Below are positions 1,628 to 43,610 of a DNA stretch of 43,821 nt, piece after piece. The notes under the pieces were generated by a model. The model had not been told where the DNA came from, ran no database searches, and was given only the letters and a program-made list of their open reading frames with translations. Origin of the DNA: an uncultured Clostridia bacterium (GTDB lineage Bacteria; Bacillota; Clostridia; Oscillospirales; Acutalibacteraceae); contig CAMKOU010000002.1 of the NCBI GenBank assembly GCA_946414505.1, positions 1 through 43,821 on the forward strand, written 5' to 3'. Each line of letters begins with the position of its first letter. Position 1 is the stretch's first letter. The translations under genes and the position numbers were made by a program.

Positions 1628-1775
1628 CATGTAGGGTCGCACCCATGTGTTCGCCCGAGCCGCGTGTTCCTGTCAAACCGTATCTGCCACGGAAACGCGC
1701 GGTTTCCTATCCCGGGCGACCATTGGTCGCCCCTACTGACGACTGCGTACTGACAGCTGACGACTGACTACTGAC
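1628..1775. repeat. Heptamer-array repeat element 1 (folT 3' side)
   Basis: A hairpin-rich core (about 1628-1733, with arms such as GGGCGACCATTGGTCGCCC) is followed by six in-phase 7-bp units of the type RRCTGAC or TACTGAC at 1734-1775. The stop codon of the minus-strand folT gene (1768-1770) lies inside the last units. About 60 bp of the core (1642-1702) is nearly the reverse complement of 7500-7560 in element 3. No inverted left array is visible here, so this copy looks partial. Confidence 0.8.
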
Positions 1776-2337
1776 CCTTTTTTCGTGCCAGCGACCGCTC
1801 GGCGGCGCAAATCAGCTTGCCGAGGGCAAAAATCAGCAGAATCTCGGGCACGGCACGTACCGCCACGCTGATGAACCGCGTCGCCAAAAAGGTGAGATAC
1901 GGCGTGGCGTAGCCGGGGTTCATGAAAATATAAAACCAAAACGCCGCCAAAAACGTTTCCACGGTGATCATGTTGACGCACCAGGCGAGTATCACGCGCG
2001 GCAGGGTGATTTGGTTTTTATACAGGAAGCAGCCGTATATAATGCCCGTCAGCGCGCCGCTGATCGTAAAGCCGGGAATATACGCGCCCATGGGTGCAAG
2101 GATGAACGACAACACGTCGCCCAGCGCGCCAACCAGCAGCCCCGACACGGGACCGAACAGCGAGCCTGCGGCGGCTATCGGCAAAAATGCCGCGCCGAAT
2201 TTGACCTGATTGCCGAAAAGCGGCAGCGTCGCGTTGGCAAACAGCCCCAGCACCACGCGCAAAGCGAGCAGCATGGCGACCAGCGCCAGCGTTTGCACCT
2301 TTTTCAGCTCGAGAAAAGAGTTTTTTAGCAGTTTCAT
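1768..2337 (-). CDS. folT: Folate ECF transporter S component
   Basis: This is a 189-residue membrane protein of the ECF substrate-binding (S component) type, predicted to bind folate and work with a shared EcfA/A'/T module that is not in this window. About six hydrophobic segments are visible, with FGAAFLPIAAAGSLFGP and a GALGDVLSFIL segment typical of the FolT group. I chose the ATG at 2337 because AGGAGG lies just upstream; the longer tracked ORF would start inside the riboswitch leader. The substrate call rests on the THF riboswitch in its leader. The stop codon is embedded in the heptamer array of element 1, so the last residues may be shaped by the repeat. Confidence 0.9.
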   Translation of the reverse strand: MKLLKNSFLELKKVQTLALVAMLLALRVVLGLFANATLPLFGNQVKFGAAFLPIAAAGSLFGPVSGLLVGALGDVLSFILAPMGAYIPGFTISGALTGIIYGCFLYKNQITLPRVILAWCVNMITVETFLAAFWFYIFMNPGYATPYLTFLATRFISVAVRAVPEILLIFALGKLICAAERSLARKKGQ

Positions 2338-3314: not shown

Positions 3315-3497
3315 AAAAAGCCCCGCTGTACCGGAAATACAACGGGGCGTTCACGCGAAAAAAGCCGGATACGGCCAAAGCGCGTCTTCTTTCATCCGGA
3401 CTGTAACCGTCGGTGCCTGAATCGCACAGGCTCGGCAGACAAACTGTCTGTTCGTGGACTATACCACCGGTGGAGAATTTCACTCCGCCCCGAAGAC
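3315..3497 (-). promoter_or_regulatory. FMN riboswitch (RFN) with terminator, controls ribU
   Basis: The minus strand reads TTCGGGGCGGAGTGAAATTC, then CCACCGGTGGTATAGTCC, and ends with ACAGTCCGGATGAAAGAAGA, matching the RFN aptamer (about 3380-3497). A GCCCCGTTG/CAGCGGGGC hairpin followed by a T run at about 3315-3348 is the expression platform. High FMN should therefore reduce ribU transcription. Confidence 0.95.
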
Positions 3498-3510
3498 AAC
3501 CTTCATTTCT

Positions 3511-5145: not shown

Positions 5146-5277
5146 CAAAAAAATACGCCCTTCGACCGAAAGGCGTTCACAAAACTCATCTTCCGGTAAA
5201 ACCGCAGGATTTAGCACCTTGCAATGCAGGTTGCCGGGCTTCACAGGGCCTGTTCCCTCCGCCGCTCTTGATAAGGT
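5146..5277 (-). promoter_or_regulatory. SAM-I (S-box) riboswitch with terminator, controls metK
   Basis: The minus strand carries CTTATCAAGAGCGGCGGAGG, then CCCTGTGAAGCCCGGCAACC and GGTGCTAAATCCTGC, closing with AAGATGAG opposite CTTATC (aptamer about 5185-5277). A CGCCTTTCGG/CGAAGGGCG terminator hairpin with a T run at 5146-5178 precedes the metK RBS. All S-box landmarks are present. Confidence 0.96.
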
Positions 5278-5410: not shown

Positions 5411-5582
5411 GCAGTTTTAGTTTAGTGCATAGTGCATAGTTTCGGGTCGCTGCGCTCCGATTGATAATGCTGCGTGCAGACGCTCCCGCCGACGCAATAC
5501 AAATCGGGTGCGGGCAACGCCCGCCCACAACTATGCACTATGCACTATTCACTTTGCACTTTCAAACTTTCCACTTTCAACT
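5411..5582. repeat. Heptamer-array repeat element 2 (cupin leader)
   Basis: The left arm holds AGTGCAT units (5424-5437) and the right arm about seven ATGCACT-like units (5533-5582: ATGCACT, ATGCACT, ATTCACT, TTGCACT, TTCAAACT, TTCCACT, TTCAACT). The arms are inverted relative to each other around a core of about 95 bp containing short stems such as GTGCGGGCAACGCCCGCCC. The architecture matches elements 3 to 5 but the unit sequence differs. Confidence 0.8.
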
Positions 5583-5604
5583 CTCTTCATAAGGAGGCAA
5601 TGCC

Positions 5605-7528: not shown

Positions 7529-7887
7529 CAGGAACACGCGGGTCGGACGAACACATGGGTTCGCCCATACATCCTAAAGGGAAAGTTTTAGTCTGTTGTC
7601 AGTTGTCAGCCATAGGGGAATCACCTTGCGGTCTCCCTATCCTGCCGCTTGGCGGCAGGAACTGACAGCCGCTAGGGCTGTCACTACGGCAGCACGGAAA
7701 CGTTTTTTATGCACACATTACCTTAACATCGTAGGGGAAACCCTTGCGGTTTCCCTTTCCTGCCGCTTGGCGGCAGGAACTGACAGCCGCAAGTGCTGTC
7801 ACTACAGTTATACGAAAAAGTATACTTTTTCGATTAACATGGAACTACTGACGACTGACAACTGACAACTGACGACTGACAACTGAC
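7500..7887. repeat. Composite repeat element 3 between spmA and spmB
   Basis: The left part (7500-7560) is nearly the reverse complement of 1642-1702. Inverted YYGTCAG-type units (7591-7611) follow. The core has two copies of a module with three hairpins: a GGCGGCAGG-type stem, a TGACAGC/GCTGTCA stem and a GGGAAACC/GGTTTCCC stem (about 7612-7680 and 7728-7805). At least six in-phase RRCTGAC or TACTGAC units close it at 7846-7887. The internal duplication indicates repeated insertion or expansion. Confidence 0.85.
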
Positions 7888-7921
7888 AGCTGTCAGCTGA
7901 CGGACTGAAAAGGAGAAGCTT

Positions 7922-25086: not shown

Positions 25087-25623
25087 ATGAACAGAGAACT
25101 ATATAATCAGGCAAAACAGGCAGCAGAGGAGATCGTGGCAGCCGCCGGACTGCAACAGGGACAGATCCTCGTTGTCGGCTGCTCGTCCAGCGAGGTGGCA
25201 GGCGGCGTGATCGGTCACGATTCCAGCGTGGAAACCGCCGAGGCGGTGTTTGCCGGCATATACGACGTATTGCAGGAAAAGGGCATTTTCCTCGCGGCGC
25301 AGTGCTGCGAGCACCTCAACCGCGCGATTTGTGTGGAGCGCGCGGCGGTGCCGGGGGCGGAAATCGTGTGCGTGGTGCCGCAGCCAAAGGCAGGCGGTTC
25401 GTTTGCCGCCACCGCCTACCGCACCTTCCGGGAGCCCGTGATGGTGGAGGAGATCAAAGCCGACGCCGGGCTGGACATCGGCGGCACGCTGATCGGGATG
25501 CACCTGAAACGCGTGGCGGTGCCCGTCAGACTGTCGCTCGACCACATCGGCAGCGCGATTTTGCTCGCCGCAAGGACTCGCCCGAAATACATCGGCGGCG
25601 AACGGGCGGTTTACAATGCGTAA
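25087..25623 (+). CDS. YwlG/TIGR01440-type conserved protein (DUF436)
   Basis: The 178-residue protein matches the YwlG group of Firmicutes: GQILVVGCSSSEVAGGVIG near the start, FLAAQCCEHLNRA in the middle, and ADAGLDIGGTLIGMHLKRVAVPVR toward the end. No confirmed function is known to me. The ATG at 25087 follows AGGAGATGATACC; the larger tracked ORF runs through the polypyrimidine tract and is artefactual. The last codons and stop (GTT TAC AAT GCG TAA) are already part of the AATGCGT array of repeat element 4. Confidence 0.92.
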   Translation: MNRELYNQAKQAAEEIVAAAGLQQGQILVVGCSSSEVAGGVIGHDSSVETAEAVFAGIYDVLQEKGIFLAAQCCEHLNRAICVERAAVPGAEIVCVVPQPKAGGSFAATAYRTFREPVMVEEIKADAGLDIGGTLIGMHLKRVAVPVRLSLDHIGSAILLAARTRPKYIGGERAVYNA

Positions 25624-25783
25624 TGCGTAATGCGTAATGAAATGAAGAGGAAACGTTTGTGGTTTCAGACCTGCGTTTCCTCTTTCCTATGAAAAGGGAC
25701 GTGTCAAAAATAACACGCCCCTTATTTATATGCAGTTTTCCAAAAGCGATAATTACGCATTACGCATTACGAATTACGCATTA
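25615..25783. repeat. Heptamer-array repeat element 4 (between convergent genes)
   Basis: Three AATGCGT units (25615-25635) on the left and four ATTACGC-type units (25752-25779) on the right are inverted around a core of about 115 bp. The core holds two terminator-like stems (GAGGAAACG/CGTTTCCTC and AAGGGACGTGT/ACACGCCCCTT). The left array supplies the stop codon of the YwlG-type gene and the right array abuts the stop of pyrD. Confidence 0.87.
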
Positions 25784-26695
25784 AATATACGGCTTTACCG
25801 TGCCGGTCAGGTCGGTGACGCTTTCGAGATGGTTTTCGTCCAAAAAGCGGTTTAAGCCCTCGTTGATCTTGACGGGCGCGTAGGGGTCGGAGAACAGCAC
25901 CGTGCCGATTTGCAACGCCGTGGCGCCTGCCATCAGCATTTCGACGGCGTCCTCCCAGGTGCTGATGCCGCCCATGCCGATGATGGGGATGCGGACGGCG
26001 TTGGCGACCTGCCACACCATGCGCACTGCCACCGGGAACACCGCCGCGCCGCTGAGACCGCCGGTGTTGTTGCGGATGACGGGACGGCGCGTGTGAATGT
26101 CGATGCGCATACCCGTCAGCGTGTTGATGAGCGACACCGCGTCGGCGCCCGCTGCCTCGGCAGCCTTGGCGATCGCGGCGATGTCGGACACATTGGGGCT
26201 GAGCTTGACGATCAGCGGCTTTTGGCAGTATTTACGCACCTGTGACGTAATGTCCTCCACCGCTTCGGGGCTGGTGCCGAACTGCACGCCGCCGCACTTG
26301 ACGTTGGGGCAGGAGATGTTCAGCTCCACCATATCCACATCCGTTTCGCTGAGCTTTTCCGCCATTTGGCAGTAGTCCTCCACGGTGTTGCCCGCGATGT
26401 TGGCGATGATGACGGTATTTTGCTGCCGCAGCCACGGCAGATCGTCGCGGATAAACGCGTCCACGCCCGGATTTTGCAGGCCGACGGCGTTGAGAATGCC
26501 CGACGGCGTTTCGGCGATGCGCGGCGGCGGATTGCCGTCGCGGCGCGTCAGGGTGATGCCCTTGCAGGAAATGCCGCCCAGTGTGCTGAGCGGATAAAAC
26601 GCACCGTACTCTCTGCCGAAGCCAAAGGTGCCCGAGGCGGCGATCAGCGGATTGTGAAACGATACGCCTGCCACCTTTACCGATAAATCAGCCAT
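25781..26695 (-). CDS. pyrD: Dihydroorotate dehydrogenase, catalytic subunit (class 1B)
   Basis: PyrD oxidises dihydroorotate to orotate in pyrimidine synthesis. The 304-residue FMN barrel shows NPLIAASGTFGFG, NISCPNVKCGG, KLSPNVSDI, NTLTGMRID and MGGISTWEDA. The true start is the ATG at 26695, overlapping the pyrK stop as TAATG; the tracked 402-residue ORF reads back into pyrK in another frame. Pairing with PyrK marks it as the NAD-dependent class 1B enzyme. Its stop codon abuts repeat element 4. Confidence 0.96.
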   Translation of the reverse strand: MADLSVKVAGVSFHNPLIAASGTFGFGREYGAFYPLSTLGGISCKGITLTRRDGNPPPRIAETPSGILNAVGLQNPGVDAFIRDDLPWLRQQNTVIIANIAGNTVEDYCQMAEKLSETDVDMVELNISCPNVKCGGVQFGTSPEAVEDITSQVRKYCQKPLIVKLSPNVSDIAAIAKAAEAAGADAVSLINTLTGMRIDIHTRRPVIRNNTGGLSGAAVFPVAVRMVWQVANAVRIPIIGMGGISTWEDAVEMLMAGATALQIGTVLFSDPYAPVKINEGLNRFLDENHLESVTDLTGTVKPYI

Positions 26696-35555: not shown

Positions 35556-35559
35556 CGTA

Positions 35560-35893
35560 GTCAGTGGTCAGTCGTCAGCCGCCAGCTGTCAGTAGGCAGA
35601 AGTAGGGTGTGCATCGCACGCACGCGCGGATTTCATAACAATGTTTTCCGTACAATCGTAGTGACAGCCCTTGCGGCTGTCAATTCCTGCCGCCGTGCGG
35701 CAGGAAAGGGCAACCGCGAGGGTTGCCCCTACGGATAATAAGGAAACGTATGGTCGCCCCAACTGCCGACTGCCGACTGCCGACTGACAACTGACAGCTG
35801 ACAACTGACAACTGACAGCTGACAACTGACGACTGACGGCTGACAGCTGACAACTGACGACTGACAGCTGACGACTGACAACTGACAGCTGAC
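35560..35893. repeat. Heptamer-array repeat element 5 (spoVAE-metG)
   Basis: The left arm has six GTCAGYY-type units (35560-35601). The core (35602-35760) holds the three-hairpin module (GTGACAGC/GGCTGTCA, CCTGCCGCC/GCGGCAGG, GGGCAACC/GGTTGCCC). The right arm has 19 units in unbroken 7-bp phase (35761-35893): three RRCTGCC, then RRCTGAC with only the first two purines varying. It is the largest element in the window and lies directly upstream of the metG promoter. Confidence 0.92.
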
Positions 35894-35905
35894 CGACATT
35901 TGCAC

Positions 35906-37949: not shown

Positions 37950-37960
37950 ATTGCTCTCGC

Positions 37961-38103
37961 TGTCATTTCGAACGGTCGCGAAGCGAATTTGTGCAGCAAA
38001 TAGCCGAGAAATCCCCTGCGGCGACGCGCATTAGTATCCTGTCAAGGGGATTTCTCGACTAAATCGCTACGCGATTTTGCCTGCGGCACCGCTCGAAATG
38101 ACA
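37961..38103. repeat. TGTCATTTCGA palindromic repeat before the GIY-YIG gene
   Basis: The 143-bp element begins TGTCATTTCGA and ends TCGAAATGACA. A second inverted pair (CGAGAAATCCCC and GGGGATTTCTCG) lies inside, with smaller stems (TCGCGAAGCGA and ATCGCTACGCGAT). It starts 11 bp after the metG stop and ends 25 bp before the GIY-YIG start. A related end occurs at 43794. I recall similar TGTCATTTCGA...GAGAAATC palindromes from many bacterial genomes. Confidence 0.9.
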
Positions 38104-38128
38104 TCTTACACAGAAAGCCGGCGGCAAC

Positions 38129-38410
38129 ATGAAGCAATACTATGTTTACATTCTTGCCAATACAAACAATCACGTACTTTATGTCGGCGTAACCAACAAT
38201 CTTATGCGGCGTTTATATGAACATAAAAACAAACTGGTTGACGGCTTCACAAAAAAATATGCAGTTGATAAACTTGTTTACTATGAAATCACAACCGATA
38301 TAAATTCCGCTATTGAACGGGAAAAGCAAATCAAAAAGTGGTCACGCCAAAAGAAAAATATACTCATTGAATCAAAAAATCCAAACTGGTTAGAAATATT
38401 ACTTGAATAA
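38129..38410 (+). CDS. GIY-YIG domain nuclease (YhbQ/UPF0213-like)
   Basis: The 93-residue protein is a single GIY-YIG nuclease domain. It shows YYVYIL (GIY half), LYVGVTNNLMRRLYEHK (YIG half with the conserved Arg and His) and a Glu in SAIEREKQIKKW for metal binding. The gene is strikingly AT-rich next to metG and tatD and reads directly into tatD (TAA followed at once by ATG). No good RBS was seen before its ATG. It looks like a late insertion, together with the palindromic repeat, into a metG-tatD operon. Its role may be repair or repeat mobility; neither is shown. Confidence 0.92.
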   Translation: MKQYYVYILANTNNHVLYVGVTNNLMRRLYEHKNKLVDGFTKKYAVDKLVYYEITTDINSAIEREKQIKKWSRQKKNILIESKNPNWLEILLE

Positions 38411-39181
38411 ATGAACCAATACACTAACATCTTCGACTCCCACGCCCACTATGACGACCGCTGGTTTGACGGCGACCGCGAGGCTTTGCTTGCGGCGCTG
38501 CCGGCGCAGGGCGTTTGCGGGATCGTGAACAACGCGGTGGATCTGGACGCCGCCGCGCGGGTGATCGCGCTTGCCGAGGCATATCCGCACTGCTATGCGG
38601 CGGTGGGCTTTCACCCCGAAAATTTAGAAAACATGCCGCCTGATTATGTAGACCACATCGCCGCGCTGACGGCGCACCCCAAGGTGGTGGCGATCGGCGA
38701 AACGGGCTTGGACTATCACTGGGATATCCCCAAACCCCAGCAACAGCGCGTTTTTGAGGAACAGATATGTCTGTCGCTCGACTTGAACCTGCCGATCGTC
38801 GTGCATGACCGCGAGGCGCACGGCGATGTGTTCACCCTGCTGCGCAAATACCGCCCCAAGGCGCTGGTGCACTGCTTTTCGGGCAGCGTTGAGCTGATGC
38901 GTGAGGCGGTGCGGCTGGGCTGTGTGATCAGCCTGGGCGGCGTGGTCACCTTTAAAAACGCGCGCCACAGCATAGAGGTCGCGGCGGAAATTCCGCTTGA
39001 CCGGCTGCTGCTGGAAACCGACGCTCCCTACATGGCGCCTGTTCCCTATCGCGGCAAGCGTTGCGACAGCGCGATGATCGTCTATGCGGCAGAAAAAATA
39101 GCAGCCCTGCGCGGGATCCCCACGCAAGAGCTGCTGGATATCACGGCGGCTAACGCCAAACGTTTTTACGGAATACAATGA
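38411..39181 (+). CDS. tatD: TatD-family metal-dependent DNase
   Basis: TatD proteins are TIM-barrel metal-dependent nucleases. The 256-residue protein has the metal-binding FDSHAHYDD, AIGETGLDYH (Glu), LPIVVHDREAH, ALVHCFSGS and LLETDAPYMAP motifs. It starts at the base right after the GIY-YIG stop, and no RBS precedes it, so translation probably depends on termination of the upstream gene. In many Firmicutes tatD follows metG directly, which suggests that its own leader was displaced. Confidence 0.95.
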   Translation: MNQYTNIFDSHAHYDDRWFDGDREALLAALPAQGVCGIVNNAVDLDAAARVIALAEAYPHCYAAVGFHPENLENMPPDYVDHIAALTAHPKVVAIGETGLDYHWDIPKPQQQRVFEEQICLSLDLNLPIVVHDREAHGDVFTLLRKYRPKALVHCFSGSVELMREAVRLGCVISLGGVVTFKNARHSIEVAAEIPLDRLLLETDAPYMAPVPYRGKRCDSAMIVYAAEKIAALRGIPTQELLDITAANAKRFYGIQ

Positions 39182-42843: not shown

Positions 42844-43545
42844 ATGAAGGAAACCATCGTCACCATCCCCATCAACGATCTGTTTGCCCCGCGCGACGGC
42901 TGTCCGCTGTGCCGCATGGAGCATATGCTGGAGGAGCAATACTGTCAATACATTACGGGCGACGCCATGATGGAGCCGAGCGTGCGCGTGATCACCAACA
43001 AAAAAGGCTTTTGTCACCGCCACTATTCGCGCATGACGCAAGTGGGACAAAAGCTGCCGAATGCGCTGCTTTTGGAAACGCATTTGGAGGAAACGCTCGA
43101 AAAGCTGCTGCCGAAAAAAGCCGGGAAGCCCGACAAAAAGCAGCTGGAAGCCCTGCGCGAGATGCTGGACGCGTGCTATGTGTGCGAGCTGGTGAAGGGC
43201 GATATGCTGCATTTGCTGGCAACCGTGTTTGCGGAATGGGCAAAGGGCAACGAATTTCGCCAAACCTTTTTGGAGCAGCCGTTCATCTGCCTGCACCACT
43301 ATCACCTGATGATGACGGCGGCAATGGCCAAAGGCGGCGTGCCGTCGAAGCTGCTGCCGGCGTTCCACGCTGATGTGCTGCAGCTGGTGCGCGGCTATTT
43401 GGAGTCGCTGAAAAAGGACACCGACCACTTCGTCACCATGTTCGACTACCGCAGCAAGGGGCAGGAATGGGGCGCCTCGGTGGATGTGATCGAGCGCGAT
43501 ATCGCATTTTTGACAAAGGAAAAGCCGGAGGCAGGCGATCCGTAG
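42844..43545 (+). CDS. DUF6062-like conserved protein
   Basis: The 233-residue soluble protein has CPLCRMEHML near the N-terminus, GFCHRHYSRM, CYVCELV in the middle and FICLHHYHLMM toward the end: two CxxC plus C-H-x-H type sets, fitting one or two metal sites. The pattern matches what I recall of DUF6062 in Clostridia; no function is known to me. AAGGAGAGG precedes the ATG. The stop TAG forms the first base of a heptamer array. Confidence 0.8.
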   Translation: MKETIVTIPINDLFAPRDGCPLCRMEHMLEEQYCQYITGDAMMEPSVRVITNKKGFCHRHYSRMTQVGQKLPNALLLETHLEETLEKLLPKKAGKPDKKQLEALREMLDACYVCELVKGDMLHLLATVFAEWAKGNEFRQTFLEQPFICLHHYHLMMTAAMAKGGVPSKLLPAFHADVLQLVRGYLESLKKDTDHFVTMFDYRSKGQEWGASVDVIERDIAFLTKEKPEAGDP

Positions 43546-43610
43546 GCAGCAGTCAGCTGTCAGTAGTCAGTCGTCAGTTGCCAGTCGCAGTCGGCAGTTG
43601 CCGGTCGTCC
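43545..43610. repeat. Heptamer-array repeat element 6 (left arm)
   Basis: About nine units of GTCAGYY type (GGCAGCA, GTCAGCT, GTCAGTA, GTCAGTC, GTCAGTT, GCCAGTC, a 6-bp GCAGTC, GGCAGTT, GCCGGTC) begin on the G of the DUF6062-like stop codon. No matching inverted arm was found before the window end, so this copy is partial or has lost its second arm. Confidence 0.85.

Follow-up and report, generated by a model that had tools for sequence, protein, structure and literature searches.

Inverted arrays of 7-bp units in a Clostridia genome as probable termini of a mobile-like element that carries an S23p gene when complete

What kind of element is made of two inverted arrays of 7-bp units around a hairpin core, keeps this plan while its unit sequence changes, and came to lie upstream of the metG promoter in an uncultured Clostridia bacterium? 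The locus that raises the question lies at 35557-35893 of the window analysed here (the whole stretch of 43,821 nucleotides at the start of contig CAMKOU010000002.1), and its parts are listed in Table 1 with those of the related elements of the window. A first-pass annotation, made from the letters alone, had described a right arm of 19 units in 7-bp phase, a left arm of six units in the opposite orientation and a core of three hairpins. Exactly 19 heptamers were counted in the right arm (TRF 19.1 copies, score 156), and the six left-arm units and the three hairpins, with GTAG at the start of the core and CTAC at its end, were recovered as well. The left-arm units at 35560-35601 are imperfect (GTCAGTG, GTCAGTC, GTCAGCC, GCCAGCT, GTCAGTA and GGCAGAA, so that GTCAG is found in four of the six), and the RRCTGAC unit, which had been called constant, is present in 16 of the 19 right-arm units, the first three being RRCTGCC. 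As RNA, the 348-nt unit has a predicted folding energy of -155 kcal/mol (z = -9.0), and none of the shuffled sequences was equally stable.

Table 1. Arms, cores and the inserted unit located in the window.
Feature	Position	Strand	Remark
Core B (GTAGGG...CTAC)	1631-1736	+	Abuts right arm directly
Right arm without left partner (CTGACNR units)	1735-1776	+	
Element 2, left arm (AGTGCAT unit)	5420-5442	+	
Element 2, core C	5443-5527	+	
Element 2, right arm, unit drifting from ACTATGC to ACTTTCC	5528-5585	+	
Element 3, left arm (GTCAGTT unit)	7589-7610	+	
Element 3, two copies of core A in tandem	7613-7806	+	
Element 3, right arm	7844-7901	+	Ends just before ribosome-binding site of next gene
Element 4, left arm (AATGCGT unit)	25613-25641	+	Stop codon of upstream ORF inside arm
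Element 4, core, terminator-like hairpin	25642-25749	+	Shared with congeners at same site
Element 4, right arm (ATTACGC unit)	25750-25784	+	Stop codon of convergent ORF inside arm
Whole inserted unit upstream of metG	35556-35902	+	Missing at orthologous junction in G052, G006, G013 and G043
Left arm, six imperfect heptamers (GTCAGTN type)	35557-35602	+	Six units at 35560-35601
Core A, three hairpins, GTAG...CTAC	35655-35732	+	Separate REP-like repeat family
Right arm, 19 heptamers (RRCTGMC)	35761-35893	+	In phase
Left arm (GTCAGTN units)	43544-43609	+	Directly after stop codon; no right arm before contig end

Two convergent period-7 arrays were found not only at this locus but also at 5420-5585, 7589-7901 and 25613-25784, as expected from the earlier proposal that three further elements follow the same plan; elements 2 and 4 are built on units of the AGTGCAT and AATGCGT types and element 3 on the CTGAC type. 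The source genome (G000) is a 1.81-Mb MAG of 177 contigs that is 84% complete. A strict array test over 439 kb of it returned 19 arrays at lag 7 and between 0 and 2 at lags 4, 5, 8, 10 and 11, and the heptamers were rejected as an effect of chance or of microsatellites in general because the other lags have no such excess. When neighbouring arms no more than 700 bp apart were counted over 670 kb of sampled stretches, which had partly been picked for holding arrays, 19 pairs were left-right, none was right-left and three were right-right, and 19 left-right pairs were not reached in any of 5,000 label shuffles. Read in right-arm orientation, the units fall into three families (CTGACRR, ATTACGC and a drifting set of ACTATGC, ACTCTNN and ACTTTNN), and stepwise change of the unit inside a single array was seen at L235 3273. 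One architecture thus accommodates several unit families, and the first-pass annotation was right in this and in holding that slippage of a single ancestral repeat is insufficient to produce inverted arms. CTGACRR arrays are missing from most of 98 relatives; G043, G053 and, at a greater distance, G084 have them. In six of the 19 convergent pairs the two sides belong to unlike families, and unit symmetry is therefore common but not universal; one element inserting once does not explain such pairs. Elements with unlike arms lie at L219 16038-16085 and 11030-11124, L082 9979-10116, L068 6410-6645, L222 9907-10376 and L229 4459-4627.

The hairpin cores proved to be something apart. They had been taken to form a unit with the arms; cores A (35655-35732 type) and B (1631-1736 type) are instead separate GTAG...CTAC hairpin families that occur both with and without arms and frequently abut an arm directly, and core C goes with AGTGCAT arms. 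Because the cores vary between elements, the arms are their common denominator.

Aligning orthologous loci in relatives, as the first-pass annotation had suggested, revealed that whole units are missing at orthologous sites in these comparisons, most of which are between species. From the upstream gene to metG the distance is 429 bp here and 82, 87 and 90 bp in G052, G006 and G013, respectively; the site is also empty in G043, and the metG promoter and ribosome-binding site are conserved. The same four congeners that lack the whole unit of about 340 bp at this site also lack the element at 7589-7901. At the site of element 2, three congeners carry a gene of about 540 bp that resembles an acetyltransferase (named by eye), and a gene was therefore lost where the armed element now lies; this comparison also touches L198, L206 and L208. 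Between its arms, element 4 has a terminator-like hairpin that it shares with G043 and G006, and the congeners have degenerate heptamer traces at this site, for which reason it was rejected, as ambiguous, as proof of arms growing around ancestral DNA. No target duplication is visible at the plasmid empty sites described below, and the flanks within the genus of the window are too diverged for one to be recognised.

The most informative member of the family lies outside the window and was missed by the first-pass annotation. The single detected S23p gene of the genome (PF05635, '23S rRNA-intervening sequence protein', Avd-like; C1:55024-55338) is enclosed by a pair of CTGACRR arms, the unit also found in arms of the window (L069 14785-15411; PF05635 E = 1.5e-40). 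The gene matches bAvd weakly, its nearest named matches are in Clostridia MAGs, and S23p matches the solved structures of XCC0516 of Xanthomonas campestris (2gsc) and of a second protein (2rld), each deposited with five chains. The element lies between a regulator gene and ftsE in G000 (702 bp between the genes) and in G043 (565 bp). In about 27 further congeners the two genes are likewise neighbours, with 67-389 bp separating them and no S23p; one of these is G024, with an upstream protein 99.6% identical. The S23p element, too, is thus an insertion.

Period-7 arrays accompany S23p genes far beyond this genome. They were found on both sides of 21 of 30 S23p loci from the genus and the order, and two more of these loci have the upstream array inside an extended reading frame; the corresponding counts were 0 of 29 and 0 of 12 for control genes and 0 of 1,918 for random positions, and no two-sided arrays occurred at the 30 loci at lags 5, 6, 8, 9 or 10. 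A further 80 S23p loci, drawn from GTDB and extending from Clostridia to Bacteroidota, Acidobacteria, Chloroflexi, Fibrobacter, Treponema, Planctomycetes, Patescibacteria and Proteobacteria, had arrays on both sides in 52 cases and on one side in 16, compared with 4 of 3,550 random positions; apart from lag 7, two-sided cases occurred at lag 8 alone (five). Although 56 different units occur among the 73 two-armed elements, the arms of one element pair with each other at a predicted average of -34.1 kcal/mol, against -11.9 kcal/mol for mismatched arms (none of 2,000 permutations came near). Arm similarity follows the similarity of the S23p proteins (Spearman 0.39, a figure to which genome relatedness contributes; 0 of 500 Mantel permutations), and the arms therefore travel with the gene lineage. 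Overall, the association between S23p genes and heptamer arms is well supported. Some S23p genes have no arms of any kind. Type II S23p genes without heptamers have, on both sides, arrays of small hairpins with a constant spacer of about 8 nt (AGCTAAAT, AATATCACT, ACTTCAT or AATTCAT; L255, L265, L266, L267, L400, L401, L402 and L404), which are a second kind of arm at S23p genes.

No S23p gene lies between the arms of the window elements, and we therefore regard these as related units and not as complete members of the S23p element. Copies with and without the gene are linked in several ways. When a genome was scored positive for CTRACNA arrays on two or more matches, 14 of the 98 relatives compared had them and 12 had strong type I S23p genes, and both occurred together in nine genomes, against 1.7 expected. 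In the three type I genomes without CTRACNA arrays the S23p arms are GGGCTAA, CTCAGTT and TTTAGTT; the five genomes with CTRACNA arrays and no detected type I gene (G004, G012, G013, G023 and G058) mostly have type II genes or incomplete assemblies. In G013, arms with the unit of element 4, AATGCGT, enclose an S23p gene that follows metG directly, and AGTTGAAAGTGG/AGAGTGG arms stand beside type II S23p genes in G018 and G006. One plasmid site shows directly that an armed element can occur with its gene or without it: Nostoc C052 has arms and S23p, Nostoc ATCC 53789 has arms around an unrelated core, and Nostoc C057 has neither. Plasmid S23p genes with heptamer arms, often two-sided, sit between neighbours of the same function (cas6-cas4, cas10-cmr3, nrdB-nrdA, hsdS-hsdR and tra genes), and S23p is absent from the site in the relatives Picosynechococcus PCC 7002 (88% identical), Nostoc C057 (94%) and Calothrix NIES-4105 (85%), as well as in Dolichospermum UHCC 0315A (98.7%), which has another repeat in its place. 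The plasmid junctions lie at stop codons and ribosome-binding sites, and a comparison with close empty sites shows the element standing in place of 15-42 bp of intergenic DNA, which is thus not cleanly interrupted.

We consider it fairly probable that the arms form the two ends of a mobile-like element that, when complete, carries S23p, and that the window elements are gene-less copies or remnants of it. The complete element would consist of a single S23p gene between two inverted 7-bp repeat arrays, and the window elements of arms and a filler core, often with at least one independent GTAG-hairpin (REP-like) sequence. What appears to be conserved is the pairing of the arms and not the unit sequence, so that units would drift while the arms of one element stay complementary, with slippage adding, removing and spreading unit variants. 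Avd, a relative of S23p, forms a pentamer and binds RNA of diversity-generating retroelements. By analogy, we infer that an S23p oligomer would bind the paired arms of its own element, either in an RNA stem or in a hairpin of single-stranded DNA; such binding may allow enzymes encoded outside the element to copy or move it, as well as gene-less copies in trans. Insertion would be tolerated chiefly in intergenic DNA, behind stop codons and ahead of ribosome-binding sites, and the stop codons that a 7-bp unit places in more than one frame may, as a conjecture, help the element to sit at gene ends. What carries this reading directly is that arms and S23p genes go together in many phyla, that the arms are inverted and complementary in cis, that whole units are present or absent at orthologous sites and that copies with and without S23p in one genome have a unit in common. 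Against it count the 15-42 bp replaced at close empty sites with no target duplication, the five genomes with CTRACNA arrays and no detected type I gene, the six unlike-arm pairs of 19, the S23p genes without heptamer arms and the conserved positions of most Xanthomonas repeats (PMC4692102), and we know of no catalytic activity of S23p.

Short inverted repeats beside genes could instead have expanded in place by slippage, with hairpin-templated copying equalising the two sides, no movement of whole units and S23p as a passenger. The stepwise drift of the unit within one array, the terminator that element 4 encloses in common with congeners that have degenerate heptamer traces there and the mostly conserved positions of arrays in Xanthomonas (PMC4692102) would all fit such growth. 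We nevertheless hold it to be unlikely, as whole units of 340-700 bp are missing from many orthologous sites, arms stand at S23p genes in many phyla and hardly ever at control genes or random positions, and the unit is common to distant genomes and the S23p lineage. It is distinctly less probable that S23p is a DNA- or RNA-binding regulator, with the arms as its operators and the gene-less arrays as its regulon. That the S23p gene is itself flanked by arms, that arrays adjoin genes and that, in MacGregor's proposal, TAACTGA repeats are bound by a protein (PMC4679880) speak for a regulator; the arms, however, stand symmetrically on the two sides of the gene, including downstream, gain and loss affect the unit as one block, the neighbouring genes are unrelated, and a unit that differs in nearly every genome would be hard for a regulon to tolerate.

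The GTAG-hairpin cores could themselves be mobile through a Y1 (RAYT-type) transposase, the heptamers being a preferred landing place or a by-product. Cores A and B do open with GTAG and a hairpin, the REP/BIME signature, which is present in these cores only and not in the arms, and they often abut an arm. Yet cores are found without arms and arms without cores A or B, and insertion of a core into an existing array was rejected because the arms would end up direct and not inverted. The two Y1_Tnp matches in this genome are weak (22.7 and 20.8 bits), and a RAYT as sole driver was rejected since Y1_Tnp presence does not follow the arrays across relatives, array-rich G084 having none; we regard this explanation as very improbable. 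That the arms are kept as long RNA stems for RNase III cutting or transcription end, as in intervening sequences (IVS), would suit the strong predicted fold (z = -9.0), the complementarity in cis and the Coxiella IVS with S23p, inverted repeats and heptamers cut by RNase III (PMC4990558), but it would account for tolerance and not for spread, and the metG promoter lies downstream of the element at 35557. As an explanation in its own right it is very improbable; it is compatible with the S23p element.

The elements have points of likeness to several known systems. As in REP/BIME sequences, GTAG and a hairpin stand at the start of cores A and B; as in MITEs, the units are short, gene-less and intergenic with inverted ends. 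The ends of a MITE are one fixed sequence shared with a transposase gene, whereas here the arm unit varies between elements, no fixed terminal sequence is found and no transposase is linked. Cyanobacterial STRRs are tandem 7-bp intergenic arrays of several unit types, as are the arrays here, although our host is not a cyanobacterium; to our knowledge STRRs have not been described as paired inverted arms, and cyanobacterial plasmid S23p genes do carry such arms. Contrary to the first-pass annotation, which knew of no described element of this kind, Rehm et al. 2015 (PMC4692102) and MacGregor 2015 (PMC4679880) precede it; of its interpretation, the element family, the empty sites and the inadequacy of plain slippage stand, and the novelty and the joining of arms and core into one unit do not. 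Rehm et al. counted 70 pairs of inverted, convergent heptamer arrays in one Xanthomonas genome and 75 in another, and found 83% of the Xanthomonas repeats at the same place in two species, so that such arrays can be long-lived; a general link to mobile elements was not found (PMC4692102). Those GGGAATC pairs, like ours, are two convergent intergenic arrays, and the S23p homologue XCC0516 (PDB 2gsc) comes from Xanthomonas campestris, but they were studied as G-quadruplex repeats of one unit family and not connected with S23p (PMC4692102). The TAACTGA arrays of Beggiatoaceae, cyanobacteria and Bacteroidetes are likewise intergenic 7-bp arrays near gene ends with a patchy distribution across several phyla, for which a mobile binding protein was suspected; their unit length, not a multiple of three, gives stop codons in more than one frame, and they differ in being mostly single direct arrays read as translational control sites (PMC4679880). 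The Coxiella burnetii IVS has an S23p gene between terminal inverted repeats, RNase III cutting and tandem heptamers (GACAGAT) whose number varies between strains (PMC4990558). The elements here likewise have terminal inverted repeats predicted to pair into a stem; they differ from IVS, which lie inside 23S rRNA genes, in being intergenic between protein genes, in that both arms are arrays of varied units and in their abundant gene-less copies. Inverted heptamer pairs, TAACTGA arrays and IVS with S23p and variable heptamers were thus each known separately. A search of CC-licensed papers found none that joins heptamer arrays to S23p in general, although an earlier description may exist, and only the Coxiella paper (PMC4990558) for S23p with heptamers or mobility.

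More tentatively, and at a strength that we would put at possible and no higher, S23p genes may be the hallmark of a mobile-element class of its own, present in many bacterial phyla, of about 0.5 kb, with no recognisable nuclease, transposase or reverse transcriptase, with ends recognised by mutual pairing and with a gene-less retinue, of which STRRs, Xanthomonas pairs, TAACTGA arrays and IVS would all be forms. PF05635, a widespread bacterial family, has been a puzzle ever since the discovery of rRNA intervening sequences, and heptamer arrays have independently been another for a long time. Should the two be parts of a single element, either would help to explain the other, and both could be put to the test. 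Ends set by mutual complementarity and not by sequence would, if true, be an unusual principle for a mobile element, and such a family, widespread and poorly recognised, would explain several puzzling repeat families.

Several other features were observed in the window. The only known RNA families matched in it by Rfam are riboswitches (THF, FMN and SAM, at 2411-2507, 3380-3501 and 5183-5277, minus strand), all above Rfam gathering scores. A stand-alone small GIY-YIG nuclease gene lies between metG and tatD (38141-38409; PF01541, E about 2e-18) and is adjoined by a palindromic repeat, CTGTCATTTCGAACGG...GAGAAATCCCC, which has dozens of matching places in G043; gene and repeat (37950-38411) are possibly another small mobile element. 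The palindrome GGCAATACCGCATCATTCAGGTGTGCGGTGTTGCC at 2554-2597 is a dispersed repeat with matches in G006, G013 and G052, and is also inserted beside the left arm of the S23p element in L069.
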